A stretch of 64,000 bases of DNA from Fictibacillus terranigra (lineage in GTDB: Bacteria; Bacillota; Bacilli; Bacillales; Fictibacillaceae). The translations under genes and the position numbers were made by a program. Positions 49,429 to 50,515 of the stretch are shown here, piece after piece (position 1 is the first letter of the stretch; each line of letters begins with the position of its first letter). The DNA lies in assembly GCF_030412265.1 (NCBI RefSeq), contig NZ_JAUHLN010000001.1, positions 1,371,438-1,435,437 of the forward strand. The letters run 5' to 3'. Under the pieces are notes generated by a model. The model worked only from the letters and a program-made list of their open reading frames with translations. It did no database searches and was not told where the DNA came from.

Positions 49429-49457
49429 TTTACAAGTTACCAGGTTGTGGTTATAAT
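49429..49457 (+). promoter_or_regulatory. Strong sigma-A promoter of the yrzI-type small-ORF cluster
   Basis: TTTACA (49429-49434), 17-nt spacer, TATAAT (49452-49457). Transcription should start near 49464. Confidence 0.82.
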
Positions 49458-49502
49458 TACCATGTAAGAAAAATCAGAAATTAGCAAAGGAGGTCGGACA
49501 CC

Positions 49503-49577
49503 ATGATGCAATGGATGACAATTTCAGCAATGCAGCAATTGAATAAAATCTATCGATGTTCGGCCGTTGGACAGTAG
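49503..49577 (+). CDS. 24-codon leader ORF
   Basis: AAAGGAGG (49486-49493) precedes ATGATG at 49503/49506, and the stop is at 49575-49577. The peptide reads MMQWMTISAMQQ followed by LNKIYRCSAVGQ. Its strong ribosome site, its place just after a strong promoter and its position before two terminators suggest a leader peptide. No homologue is recalled. Confidence 0.55.
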   Translation: MMQWMTISAMQQLNKIYRCSAVGQ

Positions 49578-49600
49578 TCTTTTTTAACGATTTTTTGGAT

Positions 49601-49640
49601 AAAAAAGCGCCGCAGGCTGAACGATGCCTGTGGCTTTTTT
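49601..49640 (+). terminator. Intrinsic terminator T1 within the leader
   Basis: GCCGCAGGC (49609-49617) pairs with GCCTGTGGC (49626-49634), followed by T6. Its 5' arm is also perfectly complementary to the 3' arm of T2 over 8 nt. Confidence 0.85.
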
Positions 49641-49658
49641 GTGCCCATTTTTGGGTTG

Positions 49659-49691
49659 GTTGCAGGGATCTTGTACCTGCGGCTTTTTTTT
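49659..49691 (+). terminator. Intrinsic terminator T2 within the leader
   Basis: GTTGCAGG (49659-49666) pairs with CCTGCGGC (49676-49683), followed by T8. It is related in sequence to T1, and its 5' arm can also pair with the T1 3' arm. Confidence 0.8.
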
Positions 49692-49721: not shown

Positions 49722-49781
49722 ATGATGATAAGTATTGCTTTGTTGACCTGGTTCTCTTTGGAGAAGGATATGACTTGTTGA
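49722..49781 (+). CDS. 19-residue micropeptide, unit 1 (ends EKDMTC)
   Basis: GAGGGAGGAGAG lies before ATGATG at 49722. The peptide is MMISIALLTWFSLEKDMTC and stops at 49779-49781. It is followed after 23 nt by a YrzI-family gene. A second peptide with the same ending is found at 49990, also directly before a YrzI gene. In B. subtilis a 17-residue ORF (S1025) in the yrzI operon is the cleavage target of Rae1. Homology of the peptides is inferred from place and size. Confidence 0.65.
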   Translation: MMISIALLTWFSLEKDMTC

Positions 49782-49804
49782 ATTAAATTAAAGGAGGAAT
49801 TTCA

Positions 49805-49954
49805 TTGTTTACACTACAATTAATTTTTGGGACTGTTACCGTTACTTTTAAACGAAGAATGAGAACCCACATTGAACTGGCCCATCAGCACGCAGTGAAT
49901 GAGAGATTTGAAGCAAGCCGGGATAAAGTAGTGAATACCGTACTAACATATTAG
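49805..49954 (+). CDS. yrzI: YrzI-family small protein, copy 1
   Basis: This 49-residue protein has a TTG start after AAAGGAGG. The N-terminus MFTLQLIFGTVTVTFKRRMR matches the short hydrophobic beta-like start of YrzI proteins (LFFxTITIS pattern), and the rest is a charged helix. YrzI proteins are tiny, often tandem, and of unknown function. The second copy at 50085 has exactly the same length. Confidence 0.7.
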   Translation: MFTLQLIFGTVTVTFKRRMRTHIELAHQHAVNERFEASRDKVVNTVLTY

Positions 49955-49989
49955 GTCTGTTAGACAAAAAATTGATGGAGGGATGATAA

Positions 49990-50052
49990 ATGATGATAAA
50001 AAGACACCTGGCATTTCTAAATTGGATCTTAACGGAGAAAGATACGACCTGA
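49990..50052 (+). CDS. 20-residue micropeptide, unit 2 (ends EKDTT)
   Basis: GGAGGG precedes ATGATG at 49990. The peptide is MMIKRHLAFLNWILTEKDTT, stop at 50050-50052. The last codons, from GAG AAA GAT on, match those of the first micropeptide almost base for base. It is followed after 32 nt by the second YrzI gene. Confidence 0.65.
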   Translation: MMIKRHLAFLNWILTEKDTT

Positions 50053-50084
50053 AAAGATAACCAGGAAGGAAAGGAGGAACCTGA

Positions 50085-50234
50085 ATGTTTACACTAAACC
50101 TTTTCTTTGCTACGATTACCATTTCATTGAAGAAGAAAGAAATGACGTACGAAGATTATTTGCACCAGCAAAATGTAAATGAGCTATTCCATGCTGCTCA
50201 TGGAAAAGCGATGGACGCGAATTACATTCGATAA
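50085..50234 (+). CDS. yrzI: YrzI-family small protein, copy 2
   Basis: The protein has 49 residues, ATG 50085 after AAAGGAGGAA. It starts MFTLNLFFATITISLKKKEM, the clearest YrzI-type start of the two copies, and continues with a charged, His- and Asn-containing helix. A terminator follows, so the promoter, leader, two peptide-YrzI units and terminator form a closed transcription unit. Confidence 0.75.
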   Translation: MFTLNLFFATITISLKKKEMTYEDYLHQQNVNELFHAAHGKAMDANYIR

Positions 50235-50243
50235 TTGATCCTG

Positions 50244-50288
50244 AAAAGCCCTGCCATGCACAAATCATAGTGCGCGGCAGGGCTTTTA
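50244..50288 (+). terminator. Terminator after the second yrzI copy
   Basis: AAAAGCCCTGCC pairs with GGCAGGGCTTTT, with an inner GCAC/GTGC extension. Confidence 0.88.
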
Positions 50289-50344: not shown

Positions 50345-50515
50345 ATGAACAAAAACATCCATTGCTGTGCAACCTGCATCAATTTCAAGGCTTCAAAAAC
50401 AGAGCAGGGAATGAAATATGAATGTACAAGACTTGGGTACGAAACCAAGCCCACTTATCAATTTAACTGCTGGGAACCAAAGGAGCACGTTAAAAAATGG
50501 CTGGATAAAGCATAG
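50345..50515 (+). CDS. Small cysteine-rich protein, 56 residues
   Basis: ATG 50345 gives MNKNIHCCATCINFKASK and later YECTRLGYETKPTYQFNCW. The Cys pattern CCxxC...C...C could hold one metal ion. AGGGTG lies upstream but farther than usual. The frame is open further left, but the sequence there overlaps the terminator. No function is recognised. Confidence 0.6.
   Translation: MNKNIHCCATCINFKASKTEQGMKYECTRLGYETKPTYQFNCWEPKEHVKKWLDKA

Follow-up and report, generated by a model that had tools for sequence, protein, structure and literature searches.

In Bacillus subtilis the short ORF S1025 is reportedly cut by Rae1 (YacP) between its Glu and Lys codons, as the main Rae1 studies are said to describe (those of Leroy in 2017, Condon in 2018 and Deves in 2023), and by the title of the last of these bmrBCD is said to be a Rae1 target as well. 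One report names S1025 as the first characterised Rae1 substrate (PMC11780869), and another lists S1025, S1024, S1026, yrzI, bmrC, bmrD, and bglC as candidates for direct degradation by Rae1 (PMC10632193). A yrzI–luciferase fusion is listed beside bmrC and yheI as a reporter of protein-synthesis inhibition (PMC7604286); yrzI and bmrCD mRNAs rise when RNase P or RNase Z is depleted and tRNA maturation fails, the change in yrzI mRNA being discussed by the authors as one of mRNA stability (PMC10100781); and both mRNAs are also up in a whiA mutant (PMC10714963). The gap 5′ of B. subtilis yrzI is described as containing ncr2184/ncr60, a putative Hfq-bound small RNA (PMC3574147), and an RNA-seq table for B. 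licheniformis gives a 301-nt untranslated region for yrzI (PMC3871023) which, read as a 5′ UTR, would include the leader described below. No description of a yrzI leader or attenuator was found in the literature naming yrzI that the search covered, most subscription papers lying outside it.

Two other B. subtilis operons offer the closest mechanistic comparisons. In bmrBCD there are a translated leader ORF, BmrB, and alternative stem-loops, with induction by ribosome-targeting antibiotics (PMC4191407), while in the vmlR leader a uORF lies within the anti-antiterminator hairpin and stalling frees the antiterminator (PMC9226507). The locus examined here resembles bmrBCD in its predicted leader ORF and alternative pairings, but the B. 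subtilis terminator lies inside bmrB whereas both terminators of our locus lie 3′ of the leader stop codon, and bmrBCD controls a drug pump whereas the present operon controls small peptides. Unlike the situation in vmlR, the yrzI leader Shine–Dalgarno (SD) itself pairs with the distal part of a longer ORF (about 22–41 codons), and the yrzI leader element precedes yrzI in many families.

The window, a stretch of 64,000 nucleotides from the soil bacterium Fictibacillus terranigra, contains what we consider reasonably likely to be a Fictibacillus version of the yrzI operon in which two layers of control both depend on how translation is proceeding, and stuck ribosomes probably turn this operon on via a leader RNA switch. 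The switch is the more important feature, and in Fictibacillus it is joined to a rearranged, duplicated Rae1-type module; by analogy it fits a new element of a known mechanistic kind, attenuation of the vmlR/bmrB type. A preliminary description had proposed two micropeptide-plus-YrzI units, each ORF with a strong SD, and all four ORFs are present where it placed them (Table 1), the YrzI ORFs with 8-letter and the micropeptides with 5-letter SD matches at usable spacing. Its view of a single unit running from promoter to terminator held at the 3′ end, where the terminator is real (-30.9 kcal/mol), but had overlooked the leader ORF and the terminators T1 and T2. It is that missed element of leader ORF, antiterminator and terminator that hints most strongly at the signal sensed by the unit.

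Table 1. Predicted features of the yrzI operon in the window (window coordinates)
Feature	Position	Strand	Basis or detail
Sigma-A-type promoter TTTACA-17-TATAAT	49429..49457	+	consensus matches 11/12
Leader Shine–Dalgarno AAAGGAGG(T)	49486..49493	+	spacing 8
Segment 1, SD-overlapping strand, proposed anti-antiterminator	49491..49500	+	pairs with segment 2
Leader ORF, 24 residues, MMQWMTISAMQQLNKIYRCSAVGQ	49503..49577	+	ORF list, SD match
Segment 2 TGTTCGGCC, within leader ORF	49557..49565	+	complementary to segments 1 and 3
Intrinsic terminator T1	49609..49634	+	-18.1 kcal/mol
Segment 3, T1 5′ arm and loop	49615-49623	+	complementary to segment 2
Intrinsic terminator T2, second after leader	49658..49684	+	
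E-K-D micropeptide ORF 1 (S1025-like), 19 residues, MMISIALLTWFSLEKDMTC	49722..49781	+	SD, codon differences
YrzI-like ORF 1, TTG start, 49 residues	49805..49954	+	37% identity to copy 2, position
E-K-D micropeptide ORF 2 (S1025-like), 20 residues, MMIKRHLAFLNWILTEKDTT	49990..50052	+	SD
YrzI ORF 2, 49 residues	50085..50234	+	PF09501, 28.2 bits
Operon terminator hairpin	50244..50287	+	-30.9 kcal/mol, z -7.55

The promoter match taken alone is weak, because the scan found three sites in the region and shuffled sequences lead one to expect 3.6; among the loci listed, a likeness to TTTACA..TATAAT/TATACT stands 5′ of the leader SD in many relatives. The identification of the unit as a yrzI operon with a duplicated module is supported. 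YrzI copy 2 passes the Pfam cut-off for PF09501 (28.2 bits against 23) and falls below that for TIGR02413 (15.8 against 47.05). Copy 1 gave no Pfam or NCBIfam match up to an E value of 1; we name it YrzI-like because of its position and its 37% identity to copy 2, of which, judging by its sequence, it is a diverged relative. AlphaFold models YrzI as a single long helix, with only modest confidence (mean pLDDT 74, pTM 0.30), and a Foldseek search against the PDB returned no match, so that no function is read from the structure. For the suggestion that the operon encodes a toxic peptide nothing in particular was found in support, and a toxin–antitoxin reading, for which likewise nothing specific was found, was set aside.

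The micropeptides look like genuine cistrons from the way their codons vary. Summed over the 15 pairs among the six genomes of the genus that have both units, micropeptide 1 has 80 synonymous and 9 nonsynonymous codon differences, the latter confined to one residue, and YrzI 2 has 148 and 139; in equal-length pairs only, micropeptide 2, less favourably, has just 8 of each kind and YrzI 1 has 58 synonymous and 118 nonsynonymous differences. The proposed likeness to S1025 is confirmed in that both window micropeptides have the Glu–Lys–Asp (E-K-D) ending and its GAG codon, and both are short, SD-led ORFs of a yrzI operon with an in-frame Glu–Lys near the end, as looked for in a Rae1 substrate. 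Across all loci, every one of the 73 distinct E-K-D ORFs (73/73) uses GAG for the Glu codon of the motif, a base G precedes it in 70/75 and it lies 18 nt from the end of the stop codon in 71/75, counts that draw on many ORFs from related species and have no probability attached. The neighbouring codons are mixed (Lys AAG 38, AAA 35; Asp GAT 47, GAC 26), as are the Glu codons elsewhere in these small ORFs (GAA 14, GAG 8) and those of six ordinary window genes (GAG 40, GAA 70).

When the E-K-D pattern was sought at exact spacing in three genomes, it occurred at 20 places as against 8 for the reversed control. Within the window genome, micropeptide 2 alone passed the rule of a short ORF with a 5-letter SD, a rule that is insensitive, having missed S1025 of B. 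subtilis, and micropeptide 1, with one extra residue, falls outside the pattern. In B. subtilis an 11-residue frame that has a weak SD and terminates in MEKDVR was seen outside the yrzI operon (L186, G182 C1:1615124); it could be a chance occurrence or a further Rae1-type ORF. Variant micropeptides ending in VKGLT in place of EKDST occur at L060, L078, L084, and L075, with GTG where GAG normally stands at L060 and L084. Four loci (L041, L042, L045, and L049) carry, 5′ of the first YrzI, a 19-residue SD-led ORF without E-K-D (MIGLKQKSEHWQALEVSHI for example), perhaps a decayed first micropeptide. In families other than that of the window, an ORF of 16–19 residues, hydrophobic, basic-ended and with its own SD, follows the E-K-D ORF at L152, L153, L154, L155, L156, L161, L016, and L011 (example MLSVHVLIFTILFTKHNK) and may be another, unnamed peptide of the yrzI operon.

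Relatives were gathered by a YrzI search of 149 genomes, of which 86 had a match at E 0.01. The pair was looked for in related genomes, and both micropeptides and both YrzI ORFs are present in the window and in five of the six congeners examined. With E for an E-K-D ORF and Y for YrzI, the 33 loci of the window's family, which we take to be Fictibacillaceae, have the orders EY (15), EYEY (6) and YEY (6), more rarely EYY (2), YYEY (2), Y (1) and YeY (1); the E-K-D ORF comes first in 23 of them and between two YrzI ORFs in 9 more. The YrzI calls within this family are partly circular, because the HMM contained six of the family's own sequences, two of them from the window itself. Among 83 loci outside the family, by a loose rule for E-K-D likeness, such an ORF follows YrzI in 66 and precedes the first YrzI in 4, and there are one to five YrzI per operon, often with one E-K-D-like ORF or none. 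The copy numbers of micropeptide and YrzI, whose covariation had been proposed as a check, thus do not track each other strictly in either set. At L072 (the same locus as L147) and L148 the operon has a run of four or five consecutive YrzI-like ORFs.

The B. subtilis operon (locus L102) has a 17-residue ORF, MLRMELLMHYTMEKDQV, with E-K-D and a GAG codon, 3′ of yrzI, which from its length and place we take to be S1025. Like the window, B. subtilis thus has a leader ORF, YrzI, a GAG-bearing E-K-D micropeptide and Rae1, but with one copy each in the order leader-yrzI-S1025, as against leader-[E-K-D-YrzI] twice in the window. The idea that each YrzI is preceded by a substrate of its own accordingly holds for Fictibacillus (EYEY in the window and five congeners) and not for B. 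subtilis, and since S1025 lies 3′ of yrzI there, the Fictibacillus order is a rearranged one. If this B. subtilis genome is numbered like strain 168, as we presume, ncr2184/ncr60 maps to -276 to -43 of yrzI, from the leader SD into T2. Over the 165 residues searched, the Rae1 of this B. subtilis genome matches the solved YacP sequence at 100% identity, and the window genome also encodes Rae1 (PF05991, 199 bits; E 4.6e-67 to the solved YacP). Rae1 is found in 149 of 149 relatives and YrzI in 86, and its presence therefore does not discriminate, which makes co-occurrence useless as an argument.

The anatomy of the leader, its conservation and its complementarities can be read from the sequences themselves. 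Leader candidates were chosen for their start codon, their length, their place and the strength of their SD, with pairing ignored, and one was found at 101 of 110 yrzI loci and none at the other 9; of the further loci fetched, which are outside the 110, L107–L109 could not be oriented, L085, L087, and L088 were not entered and L089–L092 duplicate other loci. Three of the 101 picks (L011, which is a YrzI, L080, and L086) look wrong and are counted as misses. The window leader ORF has the best SD match of its region. Pairing between the leader SD and the ORF (segments 1:2) beats shuffles at p<=0.05 in 71/101 candidates, with at least one significant locus in 23 of 26 families, as against 1/61 when the same test is put to the SDs of yrzI cistrons outside the window's family; in the window, none of 300 shuffles paired as well. 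The two strands vary together: NCGA goes with TTCG in 39 cases and with TTCA in none, and NTGA with TTCG in 15 and with TTCA in 25, a table in which three CTGA/TTCAACC rows that come from another TTCAACC early in the ORF were kept. The Fisher value of 2e-10 does not allow for relatedness, because all 25 TTCA rows come from a single family (f44). When partners were swapped between 14 CTGA-type and 40 TCGA-type loci, the duplexes became weaker, with medians of -8.5/-10.4 kcal/mol in place of -13.2/-13.9.

Among the relatives, segment 2 is found in each of the three reading frames (46/31/9), and it is therefore the RNA and not the leader peptide that is conserved. In most relatives more than 20 nt separate the end of segment 2 from that of the stop codon, so that a terminating ribosome may fail to cover it. 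The window leader as a whole folds no better than shuffles (z -1.08) and has no Rfam match up to E 0.5. A blind search of 299 genomes of the order, with a DNA pattern made up solely of segments 1 and 2, gave 28 matches, a raw count that is weak because the reversed control gives 21; the argument rests instead on position, since a YrzI ORF, called with an HMM to which some of these loci had contributed, lies within 900 nt 3′ of 24 of the 28. Half of the matches (14) were in genomes not earlier searched for YrzI, which is present in 11 of these 14. The matches at L146, L151, L160, and L162 have no YrzI within 900 nt and no leader-like ORF of the usual length, and the pattern misses the window itself, where segment 1 differs.

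A terminator-like hairpin lies within 220 nt of the leader stop codon in 94 of the 101 loci and in the other 7 there is none, under a lenient rule (four T preceded by a hairpin at least as stable as -7 kcal/mol) that sometimes takes a weak hairpin or passes over the true T1 (L008 and L072 are examples). Two such hairpins follow the leader in 57/101, and as a rule only the first is complementary to it; T2 may act as a back-up. Pairing of segment 2 with T1 (2:3) reaches p<=0.05 in 47/94 loci, against 2/57 for the T2 control, and by family in 14/25 for T1 against 2/19 for T2, leaving 11 of 25 families without a significant locus. The window's own values are borderline (p 0.06 and 0.05). At L058 the segments are unlike those of its relatives, yet 2:3 is strong (CCATCGGCC with GGCTGATG, -14.3 kcal/mol).

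Of the elements expected of an attenuator, two are in place, namely a translatable candidate leader ORF before an intrinsic terminator and an antiterminator overlapping that terminator and mutually exclusive with it (significant for T1 at the 47 loci above, and borderline in the window). The 1:2 pairing that overlaps the SD (71/101 against 1/61) is a candidate for the anti-antiterminator that a stalled ribosome would exclude, yet 2:3 also folds with no ribosome present. When partial transcripts of the window, extended as far as the 5′ arm and loop of T1, were folded, 2:3 formed with a ribosome at the start codon or in mid-ORF and not with one at the stop codon, but a naked partial transcript of the same length favoured it too, with 6.5 expected pairs against 1.8 for 1:2. 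As the transcript grows, 1:2 reaches its full extent first (8.5 pairs at 49600), and once the leader is finished T1 always prevails at equilibrium. Equilibrium folding alone fails to reproduce the switch in the window leader, and therefore the order of folding would have to decide, as in attenuators. With a start-bound ribosome the antiterminator forms for T1 in 76/94 loci and for T2 in 9/57; the control of this comparison, in which the ribosome sits on segment 2, necessarily gives zero.

The direction of switching, cutting by Rae1 in Fictibacillus and the resetting role of that cut are inferred from these sequence features. In the first layer, transcription would begin at the promoter and a ribosome would start on the leader ORF. 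Were the leader read through, the ribosome would clear segment 2, T1 would form with T2 behind it, and transcription would end; were ribosomes stalled or queued at the leader start, segment 1 would be hidden beneath them, segment 2 could then pair with the 5′ arm of T1, and transcription would continue into the operon. In the second layer, each micropeptide ORF carries near its stop codon G-GAG-AAR-GAY, the signal of Rae1 substrates, at which a translating ribosome would let Rae1 cut, shortening the life of the message and resetting the system. In Fictibacillus, with the Rae1-type ORF 5′ of YrzI and the pair duplicated, each YrzI would have a cut site on its own 5′ side, and a cut in the micropeptide would detach YrzI from the upstream portion of the mRNA, leaving a new 5′ end.

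It might be argued that the leader is a separate gene for a small RNA or peptide, ended by T1 and T2, and that a promoter lying beyond T2 or overlapping it serves the yrzI units separately, with no antitermination. The listing of ncr2184/ncr60 at this place in B. subtilis as a putative Hfq-bound small RNA (PMC3574147) and the paired terminator-like hairpins in 57/101 loci agree with such an arrangement, as do TTGTAC and TATAAA, seen by eye 15 nt apart at the end of T2. At the 16–18 nt required by the scan rule, however, no promoter-like site stands between T2 and 49722, the 301-nt B. licheniformis region would, as a 5′ UTR, span the leader (PMC3871023), segment 2 pairs with T1 and not with T2, and the blind pattern leads to yrzI at 24 of 28 loci, so we regard separate genes as quite improbable. 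We are just as doubtful that SD pairing merely restrains translation of the leader, as autoregulation, with the complementarity to T1 incidental. Support for 1:2 is indeed wider (23/26 families) than for 2:3 (14/25), and equilibrium folding prefers T1, but an incidental complementarity sits poorly with the same test giving 47/94 for T1 and 2/57 for T2, or with the -14.3 kcal/mol of 2:3 at L058 despite segments unlike those of its relatives.

The E-K-D micropeptides could in turn be effectors themselves, toxic or signalling, with YrzI as partner, and not decay signals. Amino-acid conservation of micropeptide 1 is far above that of YrzI 1 (80:9 over 15 pairs versus 58:118 in equal-length pairs), although a nascent-chain effect on the ribosome would conserve residues too; and the fixed codon (GAG 73/73), preceding base (G 70/75) and spacing (18 nt in 71/75) imply that more than the peptide is constrained, either the RNA or its decoding, which makes an effector role unlikely in our estimation. 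Somewhat easier to entertain, though still on the unlikely side, is that the tandem is an ordinary gene duplication whose E-Y order has no special regulatory meaning: elsewhere there are 1 to 5 YrzI per operon, often with one E-K-D ORF or none, so that YrzI number varies apart from the E-K-D ORFs. Against this, E-Y-E-Y has been retained in the window and five of six congeners while the copies diverged.

If the proposed stalling switch is true, it would explain the behaviour of B. subtilis yrzI as a reporter of protein-synthesis inhibition. Since yrzI and bmrCD are both Rae1 candidates, a leader attenuator together with a short ORF sensitive to Rae1 seems to be common to two known targets of the enzyme, which suggests for yrzI and bmrBCD a two-layer design in which a translation-sensing attenuator turns the operon on and a Rae1 site turns it off. 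The codon data provide a sharp hypothesis for recognition by Rae1, GGAG-AAR-GAY, usually five codons from the stop, and the position of ncr2184/ncr60 suggests that this 'sRNA' is the attenuated leader. A broader reading, which we find rather unlikely, is that GGAG, whose distance of 12 nt to the stop codon is fixed, is an internal Shine–Dalgarno mimic: by pairing with the anti-SD of a ribosome as it arrives, it would detain that ribosome close to the stop and expose the A site to Rae1; that together with the leader attenuator this would turn the yrzI operon into a general sensor of stalled translation throughout the order, its on switch matched by an off switch; and that the cassette was duplicated in Fictibacillus so that each YrzI cistron could be cleared separately.

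Just 3′ of the operon terminator, on the same (+) strand at 50345-50515, the window has a Cys-rich ORF of 56 residues (CCATC...CW). It had no NCBIfam match, and like ORFs occupy the same place in five of the six congeners.
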